From Armatimonadetes bacterium 13_1_40CM_64_14 (lineage in GTDB: Bacteria; Sysuimicrobiota; Sysuimicrobiia; Sysuimicrobiales; Kaftiobacteriaceae), in assembly GCA_001917855.1 (NCBI GenBank), contig MNEU01000044.1, positions 1-35,339 on the forward strand: a stretch of 35,339 bases of DNA, read 5' to 3'. Below are positions 7,674 through 33,106 of the stretch, in pieces. The notes beneath the pieces are model-generated. The model made no database searches and was not told the origin of the DNA. It saw nothing but the letters and a program-made list of their open reading frames with translations. Within the stretch, counting starts at the first letter, position 1. Each line of letters starts with the position of its first letter. A program made the translations under genes and the position numbers.

Positions 7674-9013
7674 CGGGGCAGCGGGCGGACGCGCAAACGT
7701 AACCCCTCCACACCGATGACGACGATGCGGTCGCCTTCTCGGATGGGCGTCCGGTCCTCCGCCTCAGCCGTCCACATCTCCCCCCGCACATGCACCTGAC
7801 CCTCGGGACTGAGCGCGGAACGAGCCACGCCGACCGCTCCAATGAGCCCTTCGGTCCCCGTGCGCACCTTCGTCCGCTGGGCACGGATCCCCGCGCCCAC
7901 GGCAAACAGGAAGAACGCCCCGGTGAACAGTGCGGTGAAGATGGCCACCTGCAGCGACACGCGGAGAAACGGCAGCTGCCGATTGGTCAGGAGCATCGCG
8001 CCCAAGACGAACGAGAGGATGCCCCCCGCCGTCAACACCCCGTGGGTCGGCACTTTAATATCGGCGATGAAGAACAGGACCGACAGCGCCAGTAATCCCA
8101 CGCCGGCGGCATTGACCTGCAAAATGGCAAAGGACGTCAGGGCCAGAACCAGGGCAATCGCCCCGATGACGCCCGGGAGGACGGCCCCGGGGTTGCTGAG
8201 CTCGAAGATGATGCCGTAGATGGCAATTGTCATTAAGATCAATCCTACGTTCGGATCGCTGAGCAAGTCCAGAAGCCGCTCGCTGACGTCCATCCCGACC
8301 GGGCGCACGGAGGCGCGAGCGGTGTGGAGCACCACCGGGCCCGCCTCGGTCTCCACCTCGCGTCCGTCTACCCGCGTGAGCAGCTCGTGCACATCCGCCG
8401 CCAGCAGATCCACGATCTTCAGACGCAGCGCCTCGGCCTCGTCGACCGATACGCTTTCCCGTACCGCTTTCTCCGCCCAGTCCGCATTCCGACCGCGCCG
8501 CCGGGCCAGGGCGCGGATGTTGGCCACGGAGTCGTTGGTGATTTTTTGCATCATCGTGGCATCCTGCGCGCCCCCCGAGCCCACCCCCACCGGATGCGCG
8601 GCTCCCAGGTGTGTGGTCGGCGCCATCGCGGCGATGTGCGCCGCATAAGTGATGAACACGCCCGCCGATGCCGCGCGGGCTCCGCTGGGACTGATGTAGA
8701 CAATCACAGGGACTCGCGAGTTTAAGATCGCCTTGGTAATGTCATCCATCGACTTCAGCAGCCCGCCGGGTGTGTCCAGTTCAATCAACAGGGCGGTGGC
8801 GGAGGCTTCTTCGGCCTCATGGATTGCCCGCTGAATGAAGCGGGCGCTGGCGGGTGCGATCACTCCGTCCACCCGGATCCGCAGCACCACCGGACCCGCA
8901 ACCACCGGGTCCGCAGCGGCGGCCGAGTCCGCCCGAGGTAGGGCCAGACCCTGGATGAGGGTCGCCCACCCCGCAACCAGCACGGTGATGACGAGTAGTC
9001 GGCGCACGGTCAT
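7670..9013 (-). CDS. nfeD: NfeD/ClpP-class membrane serine protease
   Basis: This is a long-form NfeD (NfeD1b, PH1510-like) protein of 447 residues. An N-terminal signal or anchor segment (residues 1-35) leads to a ClpP-type protease domain. The serine lies in ARAASAGVFI, and a lysine in MMQKITNDSV fits the Ser-Lys dyad of the family. Several hydrophobic membrane helices follow (about 260-385), then a C-terminal OB-fold NfeD domain (about 390-447). Relatives act in membrane quality control, often with a stomatin partner; no stomatin gene is seen here. The ATG overlaps the ligase stop as ATGA, and the stop overlaps tsaE. Confidence 0.88.
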   Translation of the reverse strand: MTVRRLLVITVLVAGWATLIQGLALPRADSAAAADPVVAGPVVLRIRVDGVIAPASARFIQRAIHEAEEASATALLIELDTPGGLLKSMDDITKAILNSRVPVIVYISPSGARAASAGVFITYAAHIAAMAPTTHLGAAHPVGVGSGGAQDATMMQKITNDSVANIRALARRRGRNADWAEKAVRESVSVDEAEALRLKIVDLLAADVHELLTRVDGREVETEAGPVVLHTARASVRPVGMDVSERLLDLLSDPNVGLILMTIAIYGIIFELSNPGAVLPGVIGAIALVLALTSFAILQVNAAGVGLLALSVLFFIADIKVPTHGVLTAGGILSFVLGAMLLTNRQLPFLRVSLQVAIFTALFTGAFFLFAVGAGIRAQRTKVRTGTEGLIGAVGVARSALSPEGQVHVRGEMWTAEAEDRTPIREGDRIVVIGVEGLRLRVRPLPR

Positions 9014-10728
9014 CGGCGCGCCCCCCGTTCTGTCGCTCGCGGGGCGACCAACTTGGGAGAACTGCCGCCCCGGCTCGAGCCCTGGTGCGCAAAGAGGCGC
9101 GCGACATCGTCCACGGTATTAATCTCCTCCGGGGTTTTGTCGTCCCGAATGCGCTTGATGCGCGGAAACCGCAGCGCGTAGCCGCTGGCGTGGCGGGGAC
9201 TGCGCGTCACCGCATCAAACGCAACTTCGAGCACGATCTTCGGTTCGACGATCTTGACCCGCCCGCGGTCCACCACCGTATGGGCGCGAAACCACTCCGT
9301 CAACGACGCGATTTCGCTGTCGGTCAGACCGCTGTAGGCCTTGCCCACCGGCGTCAGCTCGCCGTCTGAGCGCACGGCGAAGGTGACGTCACTCAGCACC
9401 CCCGCCCGTTTGCCGTGGCCCTGCTCGGCCGCGACGACCACCACGTCGAGGGTGGCCAGTTCTTCCTTCCACTTCACCCACTGCCGCCCGCGCTTGCCGG
9501 GTTGGTAGTGCCCTTCCCGCCGCTTGATGACCAACCCCTCATTCCCATGCAAGCGCGCGTCGCGGAACCGTACGTCCAGATCCTCCGGCGCACTGGCCAC
9601 CGTGGCCTCGGAGGGGCGCACGACTGATCCGAAGTGCAACGCGTCGAGCGCGCGTCGGCGGTCGGCCAAGGGATGATCGAGCAGGTCCTCTCCATTGAGA
9701 TGCAACAGGTCGAAGACGAAGAGCACCACAGGGATATCGGCAATCAGCGCCGTCGGATCCTTGCGGCGAAGGCGCTGTTGCAGCTGCGTGAAAGGGATCG
9801 CGCGGCCGTCGCGCCAGGCGACAATTTCCCCGTCGAGGATGTAGCGGTTGGCGAGCGCGCGCAGATCCGCGTGCAGGTCGGGGAAGGAGGGCGTGATCTC
9901 GTCGAGGGTGCGGCTGAAGATCGCTAGCCGCGTGCCATCGAAGTGCACCTGCGCGCGCACCCCATCGTATTTCTCCTCGACCAGCACCGCGGTCGGCGGA
10001 GGGCTGCCCTTATCCTCCCCCCGGACCGGGTCAAACGCCTCGGCGGCGGTGAAGATCGTGTCAGCCAGCATGAACCGAAAGGGAGAGAACAGCCGCAGCG
10101 CGGCCTCTCCCAACCGTCCCTGGCGCGCCAGGACGGCGACGGCGCCGATGTCGCTCATGAGCATGTTCGCCCGGCGCACATCGGCCGCGGGCTGCGCAAA
10201 CGCCTTTGCAATCGCTTCTTCGAGCAATCCTTCTTTGAGCCCGACCCGCATGTCCGAGGTGATGATCCGGGCGAGATACTTCGCTTCCAGGGGATCGGCA
10301 TTCTCGAACACCGTACGCATGGCCGCGAGCTTCCCTTGCCGGGATCCCTTACCGCTCGAGGCGGCTAAGCGGGAGAAGATCTCCTGTACGGCGCGCAAAG
10401 TCAGCACTTGCGGAAACAGAGGCAAGCGGACCTTCTGGGTCAGCAGTTCTCCGGCCACGGATCCCAGATCACCGTATTTGAGGTAGGAACGATCCAGGTC
10501 GTCGTCTGAGGCCCCCGACACCTCCCGCAACGCGTCCAGGAGCGCCGACCACCCGACATTCAGCGCGCGGGCGTCTCCGGCGGGAAACGGCGCACCGGTC
10601 AGGTACGTGCAGGCGATCCGCAGGTCGTCGTCGCCGAGGGTCTGCAGGTAGGCGGCCAGATGATCGATTTTCTGGAGTTTGCTCGCCGTCCCGGACACTT
10701 GTTCCAGGACGTCGGCCAAGCGGCGCAT
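9010..10728 (-). CDS. ATP-dependent DNA ligase, archaeal/LigB type
   Basis: This 572-residue protein seals nicks using ATP. Domains in order are an N-terminal DNA-binding domain (about 1-210), the nucleotidyltransferase domain with the adenylated lysine K253 in VEEKYDGVRAQVHFDG, and a C-terminal OB domain. Further ligase motifs seen are YILDGEIVAW, FDLLHLNGEDLLDHPL, EGLVIKRREGHYQPGKR and QWVKWKEE. The full domain order resembles archaeal replicative ligases rather than short viral-type enzymes. Bacteria replicate with NAD-dependent LigA, so this is probably a repair ligase. It heads the operon with nfeD and the t6A genes. A weak -10 (TAGAAT, minus strand, 10761-10756) lies upstream. Confidence 0.93.
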   Translation of the reverse strand: MRRLADVLEQVSGTASKLQKIDHLAAYLQTLGDDDLRIACTYLTGAPFPAGDARALNVGWSALLDALREVSGASDDDLDRSYLKYGDLGSVAGELLTQKVRLPLFPQVLTLRAVQEIFSRLAASSGKGSRQGKLAAMRTVFENADPLEAKYLARIITSDMRVGLKEGLLEEAIAKAFAQPAADVRRANMLMSDIGAVAVLARQGRLGEAALRLFSPFRFMLADTIFTAAEAFDPVRGEDKGSPPPTAVLVEEKYDGVRAQVHFDGTRLAIFSRTLDEITPSFPDLHADLRALANRYILDGEIVAWRDGRAIPFTQLQQRLRRKDPTALIADIPVVLFVFDLLHLNGEDLLDHPLADRRRALDALHFGSVVRPSEATVASAPEDLDVRFRDARLHGNEGLVIKRREGHYQPGKRGRQWVKWKEELATLDVVVVAAEQGHGKRAGVLSDVTFAVRSDGELTPVGKAYSGLTDSEIASLTEWFRAHTVVDRGRVKIVEPKIVLEVAFDAVTRSPRHASGYALRFPRIKRIRDDKTPEEINTVDDVARLFAHQGSSRGGSSPKLVAPRATERGARR

Positions 10729-27740: not shown

Positions 27741-27980
27741 GACCACCTCGATTCGACGGCGGCGCACACCGGGCCTACTACGGCCGCGTCCTGCAATCTG
27801 GCAGGTTCTCGATGGCACCCGTCGTAGTTAGAGTAGGAGCGATCTTGGCAATTTCATGACTTGCGCGAAGGCCGGTGGTTCCGTGCATCCGGTCTCCGTG
27901 CCGCGCTTGAGGAGGTGGAACGGCTTAGCTTGTGGACCACGATGACTACAAGTCTGTGGCATATTCTAAGGAGGAACACG

Positions 27981-29237
27981 ATGGTACGGCGCATATGGTG
28001 GCTCACCGTTGTGAGCCTGCTCGCAATCTGGTCGTTGCTCCCCTCCAGCCACGTCGGCGCGGCCGCTTCTGGCAAGCTCGAGATCTTCAGCTGGTGGACT
28101 GCCGGCGGCGAGGCGGAAGGACTCAAGGGAATGTTTACGGCGTATCAGAAGGCCTACCCCGGCGTCGAGATTGTGAACGCGACGGTCGCCGGTGGAGCCG
28201 GCACCAACGCGAAGGCTGTGTTGGCCACGCGCCTGACGGGCGGAGATCCGCCGGACTCGTTCCAAGTCCATGCAGGACTGGAAGTGCAGAAGTACGACCC
28301 CCCGAAGTACCTGGAGCCCCTCAGCGGACTGTTCAAGTCAGAAGGATGGGAGAAGGTCTTCCCGTCCGGGTTGCTAGACTTGCTCCGCTACCAGGGAAAC
28401 TACTGGTCGGTGCCTGTCAATATTCACCGCGCGAACGTGCTGTGGATCAGCAAGCAGGTCTTTTCCTCTAATTACCTCGCCCCCGCGAAAACATTCGATG
28501 AGTTCTTCAAGCTCGCGGACACGCTCAAGGCGAAGGGGATTGTCCCCTTTGTGTTGGGGGATAAAGAAGGGTGGGAAGCGGGACACGCGTTTGAAGCGGT
28601 GCTGATCGGGACCCTGGGCGCAGACGGCTACCGCGGGCTGTGGACCGGCAAGACCGCGTGGACGGACGCGAAAGTGACCCAGGCGCTGAACACGTTCAAG
28701 CGCATGCTCACGTACACCAACAGTGATCACGCCGCCCTCACGTGGGATGGCGCCGGCCAGTACCTGATCGACGGCAAGGGCGCGATGGAAATCATGGGCG
28801 ACTGGGAAGATGGCTGGTTCCAGTCCAAGAACTTCACAGGGTACGGCTGGGCGTCCCCGCCAGGCAACGCGGGTGTCTTTGACGCGCTATCGGACTCGTT
28901 CGCGATGCCCAAGGCCGCCCGGAACCGCACCAACGCCCAGAACTGGCTGAAGGTGTCCGGATCCAAAGCGGGCCAAGAAGCCTTCAATCCCAAGAAGGGC
29001 TCGATCTGCGCCCGGACGGACTGCAACCAAGCGCTGTTTAACGCCTACCTCCAGTCCTCCGCGAAGGACTGGGCGAAGGACGCGCTGGTGCCGTCGGTGA
29101 TCCACGGCGCCGCAGCGTTTGAGAGTTGGGCGACCAAGTACAAGGACGCCATGGCTCTGTTCGTCACCAGCGGGGACGTGGCGAAGACGCAGGCCGCATT
29201 GCAGGCTGCCTGTAAGGACGCCGGGGTCTGTAAGTAA
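27981..29237 (+). CDS. Glucose-type ABC importer substrate-binding protein
   Basis: A 418-residue exported carbohydrate-binding protein. ATG 27981 has AAGGAGG seven bases upstream; the in-frame start at 27861 is rejected. A signal peptide (about 1-29) includes IWWLTVVSLLAIWSLL. The mature N terminus KLEIFSWWTAGGEAEGL, then VAGGAGTNAKAVLATRL, PPDSFQVHAGLEVQKY and SVPVNIHRANVLWIS closely match, from memory, the Thermus glucose/galactose-binding protein family (GtsA-like). Four cysteines near the C terminus (CARTDC and CKDAGVC) could form disulfides outside the cell. First gene of the operon. Confidence 0.9.
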   Translation: MVRRIWWLTVVSLLAIWSLLPSSHVGAAASGKLEIFSWWTAGGEAEGLKGMFTAYQKAYPGVEIVNATVAGGAGTNAKAVLATRLTGGDPPDSFQVHAGLEVQKYDPPKYLEPLSGLFKSEGWEKVFPSGLLDLLRYQGNYWSVPVNIHRANVLWISKQVFSSNYLAPAKTFDEFFKLADTLKAKGIVPFVLGDKEGWEAGHAFEAVLIGTLGADGYRGLWTGKTAWTDAKVTQALNTFKRMLTYTNSDHAALTWDGAGQYLIDGKGAMEIMGDWEDGWFQSKNFTGYGWASPPGNAGVFDALSDSFAMPKAARNRTNAQNWLKVSGSKAGQEAFNPKKGSICARTDCNQALFNAYLQSSAKDWAKDALVPSVIHGAAAFESWATKYKDAMALFVTSGDVAKTQAALQAACKDAGVCK

Positions 29238-29259
29238 GATCCCGTCTCACGTGCACTGC

Positions 29260-29295
29260 GCAGCGAGGCAGTCTGACTCTGGGCTGCCTCGCTGC
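29260..29295 (+). terminator. Intra-operon hairpin between binding protein and first permease
   Basis: GCAGCGAGGCAG (29260-29271) pairs exactly with CTGCCTCGCTGC (29284-29295), a 12-bp stem with a 12-base loop. It starts 22 bases past the binding-protein stop and has no T-run after it, so an attenuating or 3'-stabilising role is likelier than full termination. Confidence 0.65.
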
Positions 29296-29318
29296 ATCCT
29301 TCCGGGGACTACCCAAGC

Positions 29319-30275
29319 GTGAGCGAGACGGTTCGCGCGCAGATGGCTTCCCCCGCGGCTTCGCGCCTGCGCCGCCGGCGGGCTGTGACTGCTGACCGGC
29401 TGATCGCCGTGCTGCTCATTGCCCCCTCAGCGGCGGCCATCGCCGTGTTCGTCTACGGCTTCATTGGCTTCACCGCGTTCGCGTCGTTCACCAAGTGGGA
29501 CAACCTCTCCCCAGATTTCACGTGGGTGGGGTGGAAGAACTACGCGGCCCTGTTCAACACCGTGCGCTTTCAGATCGACCTGGGCAACACGGTCACGTTC
29601 ACGCTCCTGTTCCTGGCGATCTGTCTGTCGGTCGGCTTTACCCTCGCGGTGTTGCTGGACCGGGGAATCCGTGGGGAGGCCTTCTTCCGCAGTATCTACC
29701 TGTTCCCCCTGGCCCTCTCGTTCATCGTGACCGGCGTGGTGTGGCGCTGGCTGCTCAACCCGGGCAGCGCGCAGCTCGGCACCGCAGGCGTGAACTTGCT
29801 GTTGGAGCGGATTGGTCTCGGTATGCTGAAAACTGGCTGGTACACGGATCCCCGCATCGGCATTAAGGCCGTGGTCATCGCGGCTGTGTGGCAGTTGTCC
29901 GGGTATGTCATGGCCATGTACCTGGCGGGATTGCGGGGCATCCCGGAGGAGCTGCGGGAAGCGGCGCGAGTGGACGGCGCGAACGATTTCCAGGTGTACC
30001 GCAGCATCATCGTGCCCCTACTGCATCCAATTACGCTCGGGGCGATCATCATCCTCGGGCACATCTCGCTGAAGATCTTCGACCTCGTCGTGGCCATGAC
30101 CGGACCGGGGCCAGGGTTTTCCTCGGACGTGCCAGCGTTTTTCATGTTTGACACGACGTTTCGCGGAAACAACTTCGCCCAAGGCTCAGGGATCGCCGTG
30201 ATCCTGCTCCTCATGGTCGCGGTGCTGATTGTGCCGTACCTGGTCTTCAGCTTGCGGACGGAGACGCAGCGATAG
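29319..30275 (+). CDS. Sugar ABC importer permease (MalF/GtsB-like)
   Basis: A 318-residue inner-membrane permease with six predicted helices. The cytoplasmic N tail is basic (SRLRRRRAVTADRL), followed by IAVLLIAPSAAAIAVFVYGF as helix one. The EAA loop that docks the ATPase is EELREAARVDGANDFQVYRS near residues 220-240. KIFDLVVAMTGPGP is typical of the sugar-importer class. The start is GTG 29319, with only a weak ribosome site. Partner of the next gene; no ATPase gene is present, so a shared MsmK-type ATPase encoded elsewhere is likely. Confidence 0.9.
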   Translation: MSETVRAQMASPAASRLRRRRAVTADRLIAVLLIAPSAAAIAVFVYGFIGFTAFASFTKWDNLSPDFTWVGWKNYAALFNTVRFQIDLGNTVTFTLLFLAICLSVGFTLAVLLDRGIRGEAFFRSIYLFPLALSFIVTGVVWRWLLNPGSAQLGTAGVNLLLERIGLGMLKTGWYTDPRIGIKAVVIAAVWQLSGYVMAMYLAGLRGIPEELREAARVDGANDFQVYRSIIVPLLHPITLGAIIILGHISLKIFDLVVAMTGPGPGFSSDVPAFFMFDTTFRGNNFAQGSGIAVILLLMVAVLIVPYLVFSLRTETQR

Positions 30276-30331
30276 CACTCCCCGCAGCCCCTCCCCACCC
30301 GCATGGGCGAAAGTCCTGGCCGCGCCTAGCT

Positions 30332-31150
30332 TTGTACGCCCTCCTCACGGCGTTCGCCCTCCTCTACCTGCTGCCCATTTACGTGCTCGCCCTTACGGGA
30401 TTGAAGAGCTACGCGGAGGTGAATCTGTATCGGATGTGGGACTGGCCCGCCCATGTCTCGCTCGACAGTTTCGTGAAAGCGTGGGTGGGCAGTGAGGCTC
30501 AAGGGTTCCGGGGATTGGACAACAACTTCTGGAACAGTTTGCGCCTCGCCGTCCCGGCCACGCTCCTCTCGGCAGCGTTGGGATCGCTCAACGGGTACGT
30601 CCTGGCCAAGTGGCGGTTCCGCGGCTCCGATGCCGTCTTCACGCTGCTATTGTTTGGCATGTTCATCCCGTACCAGAGCATCTTGATCCCGCTGGTCCAA
30701 GTCCTCAATCGCTTGGGATTGTATGGCTCCATTCGGGGGCTCATCTTCGTCCACGTCGTCTACGGCATCCCCATCACAACCTTGATCTTCCGGAACTACT
30801 ACGCGACGGTGCCGAACGAACTGGTCGAAGCGGCAACGATCGACGGATCCGGCATTCTCGGAATTTTCCGCTACGTCATGGTCCCCATCTCGCTACCGGC
30901 GTTCGCCGTGGTGGCGATCTGGCAGTTTACCTCAATCTGGAACGACTTCCTGTTTGGCGTCATCGTGACCCCGCGGCCGGCGGTGCAGCCGATCACGGTC
31001 GCCCTGAACAACCTCGCGGGCAGTTACATCGTGGAGTGGAACGTGCAGATGGCGGGGGCGCTGCTCGCGGCGCTACCGACCATGCTCCTGTATGTCGTCC
31101 TGGGTCGGTACTTTATGCGCGGCTTGCTCGCGGGCTCGTTGAAAGCGTAG
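30332..31150 (+). CDS. Sugar ABC importer permease (MalG/GtsC-like)
   Basis: A second permease of the CUT1 class, six helices, with the EAA loop NELVEAATIDGSGILGIFRY and NNFWNSLRLAVPATLLSAALGS. The only standard start available is TTG 30332, giving 272 residues that begin inside helix one (LYALLTAFALLYLLPIYVL) with no cytoplasmic tail. The frame is open further upstream: an ATA at 30272, overlapping the previous stop (ATAG) and eight bases after GGAG, would add 20 residues ending HGRKSWPRLA, a normal basic tail. The true start is therefore unsettled. Last gene of the glucose-type operon, 26 bases from the convergent Hfq-like gene. Confidence 0.88.
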   Translation: MYALLTAFALLYLLPIYVLALTGLKSYAEVNLYRMWDWPAHVSLDSFVKAWVGSEAQGFRGLDNNFWNSLRLAVPATLLSAALGSLNGYVLAKWRFRGSDAVFTLLLFGMFIPYQSILIPLVQVLNRLGLYGSIRGLIFVHVVYGIPITTLIFRNYYATVPNELVEAATIDGSGILGIFRYVMVPISLPAFAVVAIWQFTSIWNDFLFGVIVTPRPAVQPITVALNNLAGSYIVEWNVQMAGALLAALPTMLLYVVLGRYFMRGLLAGSLKA

Positions 31151-31176: not shown

Positions 31177-31398
31177 CTACTCGCTCTCGCGGATTCTCCC
31201 GATGGAGTCGATGGCGTGCTTGAAGATGAGTTCCTCATTCTCGCCGTCGGGCATCTCAACCAGGATCGCGTAAGTTCCCACGGCCTTCACCACCGCGTCC
31301 TCGATAAGATGGTCACCACCGCAGCGAATCCGCACCGGCCCGCCCCAGGCGGCGAGCTCCCGGAGATACTGGTCGTCTACGTTGCCAGTGCTAGCCAT
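31177..31398 (-). CDS. hfq: Divergent Hfq-like (Sm fold) RNA-binding protein
   Basis: A 73-residue protein from ATG 31398 (a TTG at 31410 adds four). It follows the Hfq plan: an N-terminal helix DDQYLRELAAWGGP, an Sm1-like part VRIRCGGDHLIEDAVV with VGTYAILVE, and an Sm2-like part ELIFKHAIDSIGRI. The KHAI segment is the Hfq hallmark; most Hfq have Y before K, here F. Hfq hexamers pair small RNAs with mRNAs. The sequence is far from E. coli Hfq and the C-terminal tail is absent. It has no clear ribosome site of its own and may be coupled to a small upstream ORF (31391-31429). Confidence 0.72.
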   Translation of the reverse strand: MASTGNVDDQYLRELAAWGGPVRIRCGGDHLIEDAVVKAVGTYAILVEMPDGENEELIFKHAIDSIGRIRESE

Positions 31399-31429
31399 GT
31401 TTGACCGCAAGATCTGCCTCTTGCTCCAT
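31391..31429 (-). CDS. 12-residue upstream ORF overlapping the hfq start
   Basis: ATG at 31429 with a perfect AAGGAGG (31445-31439) nine bases upstream opens a frame of 12 codons (MEQEADLAVKHG) ending in TAG at 31393-31391. The stop lies four bases past the A of the Hfq-like ATG (31398), so ribosomes finishing the small frame could restart on hfq. The Hfq-like gene has no good ribosome site of its own. Translational coupling is inferred; the peptide itself may have no function. Confidence 0.45.
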   Translation of the reverse strand: MEQEADLAVKHG

Positions 31430-31454: not shown

Positions 31455-31472
31455 TTAAGTAGCCCTACTTAA
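31455..31472. promoter_or_regulatory. 18-bp perfect palindrome upstream of the Hfq-like gene
   Basis: TTAAGTAG (31455-31462), CC, CTACTTAA (31465-31472): a perfect 8+8 inverted repeat in an AT-rich patch of an otherwise GC-rich genome. It lies just upstream of the leader ORF, where an operator would sit. It is too AT-rich and lacks the T-run for a terminator. The regulator is unknown; the HTH-TPR protein encoded 330 bases away is one candidate. Confidence 0.5.
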
Positions 31473-31804: not shown

Positions 31805-33106
31805 ATGGCACTCGGAGAGCGAATTCGCCAGGTGCGTCAGAACCGGGGCCTTACACAAGAACAGCTGGCAGGTCGCGATTTTTCCAAGAGCTTTATCAGC
31901 CTGCTAGAGCGGGGGGTCGCCAAGCCGTCGGTCGACACGTTGGTGATTCTCGCGCGGCGCCTGGGGGCTTCTGTTGACTCCCTCCTCGGATCCGAGGGCC
32001 ACATTCCCGACCATGCCGCGATGAACTTGTTAGCCCTGAGCGCACAAGCCATGCAACAGCGCCGGTTGGATCTCACGACCGGCCTGCTCAGCGCCGCCCG
32101 CTTCATCGCCGAATCGTACAGCTTGGAGGAACCCCTGCGCGAAGTTCTCCTGCAGGAGTTGCAGCTCGCGCTAGAGCGCCGTGATTACGAGCTGACCTCG
32201 CAGAAAATCACGGAGGCGCTACGGCAATGCGAGGCGGGGCGCGATCGATGGCGTGCGGGACGGGCGTTGGTCCTGCAGGGTCGGCTCCAGTTGGTGCGCC
32301 GGGAACTTCATGAGGCGGTCAGGAGTTTCGAAAAAGCTCTTGAAGCGTTCCGTCAGGCGAAGGCGAGCCGCGATCCCACACGCACAGAAGCGCTCATCTT
32401 CCTCGGCACGACTCTCGCATACTTAGGCAAGCACGATCTCGCCCTGAAACGCTACGCTGAGGCCGCAGACGCCCAAGCCACGCGCCACGATCCCGTCCTG
32501 CGAGGTCGCGCATTGTGGGGCCTCGGCCTCAGCCACAGACGTCTGGGGAATCTCGACCTGGCCACCCAGCGCCTCAATGAAGCCAAGGAGGCGTTCGAGA
32601 TAATTGAGGAAATGCCAGATCTGGCTGGCGTCCTCCATAATATTGGTCAAGTGTCACATGAGCAGCGGCGCTACGGCGAGGCACTCCGCCATCTCACCCA
32701 GGCGCTTCGAATCGCGGAACGATTGAATCTGAAGATCACGCACGCTGCGACGCTTACGGAGATCGCCAGGACGCATCTGGCCACGAGCAATCTCGAAGAC
32801 GCTGGCGCAATCGCCCAGCAGGCAATCACGGCGGCCCAAAATGCCCCCGACGCGATGGAGGGCGCCGAGGCCCGGACAGTGCTCGCCACTGTGTACGCCA
32901 AGCAGGACCGTCCCGAGCGGGCCAAGGAGCTAATGGCAGAAGCGCTCGCGACCTTTCGGGTGCACGGAGCGCACGCGCGAATCGCCCAGGCCGCACGGGA
33001 TCTTGGAGAAGCCTTTATGCGCTACGGCGCGAAGACCGACGCGGCCGACCAACTGGTGATCGCCTTGGAAGCCGAGGACGCCTTACGCAAGCGTGCGCAA
33101 CCTTAG
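31805..33106 (+). CDS. XRE-type HTH regulator with TPR repeats
   Basis: A 433-residue cytoplasmic regulator. Residues 1-65 form an XRE/Cro helix-turn-helix: LGERIRQVRQNRGLTQEQLA, then FSKSFISLLERGVAKPSVDTL. The rest is all-helical with TPR-type repeats, for example AVRSFEKALEAFRQAK, LALKRYAEAADAQAT, ALRHLTQALRIAERL and RAKELMAEALATFRVHG. This layout matches RRNPP peptide-receptor regulators (PlcR, NprR, Rgg types) but also many HTH-TPR proteins without known ligands. ATG 31805 has GGAGG six bases upstream. A peptide ABC importer begins 437 bases downstream, which fits but does not prove a peptide signal. Confidence 0.87.
   Translation: MALGERIRQVRQNRGLTQEQLAGRDFSKSFISLLERGVAKPSVDTLVILARRLGASVDSLLGSEGHIPDHAAMNLLALSAQAMQQRRLDLTTGLLSAARFIAESYSLEEPLREVLLQELQLALERRDYELTSQKITEALRQCEAGRDRWRAGRALVLQGRLQLVRRELHEAVRSFEKALEAFRQAKASRDPTRTEALIFLGTTLAYLGKHDLALKRYAEAADAQATRHDPVLRGRALWGLGLSHRRLGNLDLATQRLNEAKEAFEIIEEMPDLAGVLHNIGQVSHEQRRYGEALRHLTQALRIAERLNLKITHAATLTEIARTHLATSNLEDAGAIAQQAITAAQNAPDAMEGAEARTVLATVYAKQDRPERAKELMAEALATFRVHGAHARIAQAARDLGEAFMRYGAKTDAADQLVIALEAEDALRKRAQP

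Follow-up and report, generated by a model that had tools for sequence, protein, structure and literature searches.

Does a short reading frame that resembles Hfq encode a genuine member of that family, and is it then the Hfq of its lineage? The question is raised by the window, i.e. the whole stretch of 35,339 nucleotides analysed here, in which a 73-residue protein had been described as following the Hfq plan and proposed as a possible RNA chaperone that had escaped notice in its lineage. The ORF is there on the minus strand as described, running from an ATG at 31398 to 31180 with its stop ending at 31177; an alternative TTG start at 31410 would yield a protein of 77 residues. The sequence of the 73-residue protein is MASTGNVDDQYLRELAAWGGPVRIRCGGDHLIEDAVVKAVGTYAILVEMPDGENEELIFKHAIDSIGRIRESE. 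The features of the locus are as follows.

27861..31150, plus strand: ABC transporter operon (solute-binding protein, two permeases; Pfam), converging on hfq, neighbour only
31177..31398, minus strand: standalone Hfq-like gene (ORF, Hfq profile matches below cut-off, AlphaFold2 model and Foldseek, purifying selection)
31391..31429, minus strand: 12-codon leader ORF, MEQEADLAVKHG followed by a stop that overlaps the hfq ATG; strong Shine-Dalgarno (SD) sequence
31455..31472, no strand: perfect 8+2+8 AT-rich palindrome, TTAAGTAGCCCTACTTAA, 18 bp, in the hfq/XRE spacer
31805..33106, plus strand: XRE helix-turn-helix and TPR regulator (Pfam), divergently transcribed, neighbour only

Coding status, fold and surroundings of the window gene

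The window ORF is a real gene with a protein under purifying selection, more than a chance ORF. Its GC content at codon positions 1, 2 and 3 is 0.67, 0.40 and 0.79, and its identity to the paralogue in its own genome and to relatives in family f1 is about 0.62, 0.69 and 0.40 at the same positions. Position 3 is thus the most diverged, whereas a neutral simulation of decay from a fused copy (described below) gave nearly equal identities (0.72, 0.72 and 0.74) and kept the frame open in just 23% of cases, indicating that selection acts on the protein.

The initial annotation had left two ways for its Hfq reading to fail, a predicted structure lacking an Sm fold or a profile search leading to an unrelated family. 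Instead, the AlphaFold2 model (pLDDT 86.5), computed from a Hfq-domain alignment of the window protein and 27 relatives, shows a helix and five strands arranged as an Sm fold (H9-18, E21-26, E30-40, E44-48, E55-59, E63-68), and among the matches listed in a Foldseek search of this model against the PDB, 50 of 50 are Hfq. Likewise, the family profile run against solved structures matches Hfqs with E values as low as 2.8e-9, all chains at E <= 0.01 being Hfq or Hfq-like. Thus, as modelled, the window protein has the Hfq fold. The [YF]-K-H motif of Sm2 is present as F59-K60-H61, with the lysine and the histidine invariant in all 28 aligned copies. The Hfq plan that had been read from the sequence therefore stands, with its N-terminal helix, its five Sm strands and its FKHAI-containing Sm2. 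What does not stand is the phenylalanine before K-H as a distinguishing mark: it is common, being present in ordinary Hfqs from other lineages (L154, L155, L156 and L159), in Methanocaldococcus jannaschii MJ1435 and in the majority of the fused copies of this lineage. As a single sequence, the protein scores 16 bits against Pfam Hfq (PF17209; cut-off 27) and 17.9 bits against NCBIfam TIGR02383 (cut-off 61.7). Since neither cut-off is reached, we place it in the Hfq superfamily as a divergent protein and not as an equivalog of Hfq. A scan of genome contigs yielded a single match, to 19 residues within an unrelated Mycobacterium ORF, which was set aside as chance.

Upstream of the gene, the ATG of the leader ORF is preceded by the SD sequence AAGGAGG, with a duplex energy of -11.7 kcal/mol; the corresponding values are -2.4 at the hfq ATG and -5.8 at the TTG. 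Translational coupling of the leader to hfq is possible, or the leader may instead result from a wrongly assigned start or from a frameshift in the assembly. The palindrome occurs once in the window, and its 16-bp core once in the genome even with up to 2 mismatches allowed; it is a candidate operator at which the divergent XRE regulator, whose relatives in family f1 share at most 49% identity, might act. No sigma-70-like promoter was found in the hfq/XRE spacer, and Rfam gave no match on the window. Elsewhere in the window, a 572-residue ORF (9010-10728, minus strand) resembles, by eye, the ATP-dependent DNA ligases of archaeal type, which would be uncommon for a bacterium; a relative within the order (L070) carries an NAD-dependent ligase.

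The usual Hfq of the order is a C-terminal domain

The kinship of the genomes suggests a phylum of the Terrabacteria that comprises one class and one order, a description compatible with Sysuimicrobiota (CSP1-3; PMC11604079). The window genome (2.08 Mb, 77% complete, a metagenome-type assembly) contains a second Hfq domain, at C18:51154-51348, which forms the C-terminus of a protein of about 370 residues. This domain reaches 30 bits against Pfam, above the cut-off of 27, and stays below the NCBIfam cut-off. Of the order's 43 genomes, at least 32, in families f1 and f4-f7, contain the fused protein at full length according to a whole-protein profile; it is split in two pieces in G042 and partial in G041, and was not found in families f2 and f3. 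Outside the order, the same profile finds no full-length fusion in any of 343 genomes, where Hfq is encoded by separate short ORFs and the N-terminal module is not joined to Hfq. The fused ORFs span about 370-450 residues and consist of an N-terminal module, a linker and a C-terminal Hfq, between the first and last of which the structural model places a helix and a disordered linker. Thus, the usual Hfq of the order is the C-terminal domain of a protein of about 370-450 residues, and the suggestion that the window protein is the lineage's overlooked RNA chaperone is not supported: the standalone gene was found in one genome only, and not in those genomes of family f1 that have relatives of the XRE gene. 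In 21 of the 43 genomes no match exceeds the Pfam Hfq cut-off, and most of these do carry the fused gene. If this reading is right, standard annotation makes lineages seem Hfq-less in which Hfq is one domain of a larger protein, and surveys that rely on curated cut-offs count too few Hfqs. With the terms used, no publications on Hfq fusions or nested hfq genes were found.

In a maximum-likelihood tree, the window protein falls within the clade of the order's Hfq domains (100/100), apart from 16 ordinary Hfqs, and so belongs with the former. Its branch is long (1.4 changes per column) and its place inside the clade is not fixed by the tree. The same tree groups three extra Hfq-domain copies of genus g15 that lack K-H, L065 (G030:C38:64268-64432), L066 (G027:C67:5630-5803) and L067 (G021:C1:11383-11568), with the fused Hfqs of g15 itself, so that they look like a separate duplication. 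Two of the three (L065 and L066) have no usable upstream start codon, and one of the copies ends a 183-residue ORF with a different N-terminus. L068 (G006:C156:1965-2150; 103.9 bits), from a genome of the order, was set aside: it has a canonical, proteobacterial look, lies on a 4.7-kb contig, falls among ordinary Hfqs in the tree and is probably contamination. L071 (G024:C8:9091-9225), a 127-residue ORF, has at its end a remote Hfq-like domain (LVMKHAVSVV) that does not resemble the fused family and is possibly of the mobile Hfq kind. Outside the order, L163 (G052:C1:49369-49683) is a 190-residue ORF with a winged-helix-looking N-terminus, a charged linker and a C-terminal Hfq, in a genome that also has an ordinary hfq elsewhere; similar ORFs of 174-182 residues occur in G200 and G339. 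L163 looks like a second, independent Hfq fusion.

The genes around the fused hfq were inspected at two loci, in families f1 and f5. In both, a GerM-like gene (PF10646) lies immediately upstream (L069:9645-10157 and L070:6892-7422) and GNAT and MeaB genes lie downstream; nearby, L069 has a methylmalonyl-CoA mutase and L070 a carboxyl transferase. The N-terminal module has no family name in Pfam or NCBIfam. It is found across many phyla, and free-standing paralogues exist in the order, for example in the window genome (G000:C45:38156; L104:7624-8277), where the copy sits between genes that, from their sequences, resemble secA and one for a ribosome hibernation factor. The module of the fused protein resembles the LeuA regulatory domain (PF08502) in its bbba-bbba arrangement (Foldseek E 1.8e-5), and its free-standing paralogues give weak matches to Pfam LeuA_dimer (E 0.01-0.2). 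It differs from LeuA, however, in overall superposition (TM 0.26, rmsd 11 A over 170 columns), and a profile-profile comparison lent no support to homology by sequence (probability 0.7%). We therefore treat the modelled LeuA likeness as a structural lead only, and not as family membership.

In most fused genes, GGA GGT G.. ... ATG/GTG stands in frame close to the linker's end; such an in-frame SD-ATG/GTG arrangement is present in the linker of 26 of 33 genes. When all in-frame ATG/GTG sites of each ORF were scored by anti-SD pairing energy, the linker site ranked first within its ORF in 24 of the 33 genes and second in 2. The seven exceptions all come from genera g1-g4 of family f1, the subgroup of the window itself, where the SD is degraded and the start codon mostly gone (GTC or GGG), apart from an ATG in the window genome and a GTG in L010. 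Shuffling synonymous codons within each gene matched the observed energy in at most 3% of trials (p <= 0.03) for 16 genes of 11 genera, per-gene values that are not independent because the sequences are related; ten genes outside g1-g4 did not pass. A scan for synonymous conservation over the whole gene in 5-codon windows did not place the linker motif among the strongest windows, so that the case for an internal start rests on the SD-energy ranking and the codon shuffles. In L033, the SD core GAGGTGAT lies in a different codon phase and encodes another peptide, the ATG being retained nonetheless. Each fused gene is thus predicted from these signals to yield both the full-length protein and a separate Hfq of 81-107 residues, the size of an ordinary Hfq.

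Tentatively, and with somewhat more doubt than belief, we propose for the order as a whole that Hfq is encoded in the 3' end of the longer gene, where a conserved internal SD and start would provide free Hfq next to Hfq carried on a possibly metabolite-sensing, LeuA-like module, the two perhaps sharing one ring, and that this start has decayed in the window's subgroup, one genome of which has a separate standalone hfq. If so, one gene would make both a free RNA-binding protein and a module-linked form by way of a nested in-frame start, and this arrangement would be conserved.

Origin and predicted activity of the window protein

The alignment shows that the window protein retains Cys26, G41-T42-Y43, E56-L57, K60-H61, I63 and I66. 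By contrast, D28-G29-Y30-E31, near-invariant in the fused copies, is replaced by G-D-H-L, the normally conserved G29 is lost, the E. coli-type rim R16/R17/R19 has become A/A/G (segment A-A-W-G), and Q8 of classic Hfq, a glutamate in the fused copies, is an aspartate. With the E. coli numbering and the roles of the positions taken over from established Hfq structures, the retained residues include the core and the proximal pore, and the lost ones the distal face and the rim. On this basis the protein is predicted to be a ring that binds U-rich RNA, anneals weakly and has a changed specificity on its distal face.

The explanation that we consider probable is that the window gene is a standalone, divergent Hfq, copied from a Hfq domain and acting as an Sm ring on U-rich RNA, with a parent gene that makes two products. 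The gene would have arisen as a copy of the fused Hfq domain without the N-terminal module. Its protein is predicted to assemble, by itself or together with the paralogue, into an Sm ring of six subunits, and to use Y43, K60 and H61 of the proximal pore to bind U-rich RNA, such as 3' ends; annealing is expected to be weak because the arginine patch of the rim is absent, and the specificity of the distal face to be altered. The parent fused gene, for its part, would give rise to the full-length protein and, from the internal in-frame start, to the short Hfq. Since this start is degraded in the window's subgroup, one may speculate that the window gene stands in for the missing short product, an idea weakened by close relatives in which the internal start is likewise missing and no standalone copy was found, for example G002 (97% complete).

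Could the window gene instead be an ordinary hfq, inherited vertically or acquired laterally and encoding a classic global sRNA chaperone? The fold is the same, the protein has the size of a standalone Hfq and K-H is retained, yet this origin is unlikely: the tree groups the protein with the fused domains and not with the 16 ordinary Hfqs (100/100), it scores far under the Hfq cut-offs, its rim and distal residues are replaced, and the gene is missing from near relatives. Nor does it have the expected neighbour. Classic hfq neighbours include miaA (PMC11607428), which in the window genome is located elsewhere, at C56:27536-28252, on a contig with no Hfq match.

A duplicate decaying towards a pseudogene, like the extra g15 copies, would account for the long branch of 1.4 changes per column, the lost DGYE loop and the weak ribosome-binding site at the gene's own ATG, and has a parallel in L065 and L066, which lost K-H along with a usable start. 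We regard it as quite improbable, given that the codon-position pattern indicates selection on the protein, that core and K-H are kept, and that the frame is open where neutrality would leave it so in only the minority of simulations mentioned above. Equally improbable is a regulatory partner or a scaffold that still builds rings, with the Sm fold kept but no action on RNA left: the distal and rim residues are indeed replaced, and a Hfq label has been wrong before, for Borrelia BB0268/FlgV (PMC11607428), where the fold itself differed, but Y43, K60 and H61 of the proximal pore have been retained, the lysine and histidine in every aligned copy, and a mere scaffold would not need them.

Our verdict is that the window gene is a genuine, divergent and fast-evolving Hfq paralogue found in a single genome, and that the order-wide, possibly dual-start fused hfq is the more interesting finding. 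As a copy of the domain separated by nature, with a changed distal face and an unchanged pore, the window gene has an interest of its own.

Comparison with known Hfq and Hfq-like proteins

Borrelia BB0268/FlgV had been called an atypical Hfq and was later shown not to bind RNA; it has transmembrane helices and no Sm fold, and is encoded in a flagellar operon (PMC11607428). The window protein is unlike FlgV in that it is modelled as a soluble Sm fold and its gene lies outside any flagellar operon. A mobile, archaeal-derived Hfq clade is carried by phages and plasmids (PMC11607428). No relative turned up in viral contigs, so that a link to phage-borne Hfq finds no support there; the family profile is closer to classic Hfq, while the window sequence taken alone is closest to MJ1435. 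This archaeal Hfq-like protein (2qtx, 5dy9) is the best single-sequence PDB match of the window protein, with which it shares FKHAID and 37-39% identity in structural alignment. The profile of the whole family, in contrast, matches bacterial Hfq better (E 2.8e-9) than it does MJ1435 (E 2.3e-5).

With classic bacterial Hfq (PF17209, TIGR02383; Thermotoga maritima 4y91 and Bacillus subtilis 3ahu/3hsb, which the family profile matches at E 2.8e-9 to 6e-8), the order's family has in common the helix and five-strand Sm fold, the K-H of Sm2 and the length. It differs by a one-residue insertion in strand 2, an invariant Cys26, the absence of the rim arginines, an altered distal loop and scores under the curated cut-offs, and by the fusion of the order's copies to an N-terminal module; the window protein is itself without this module.
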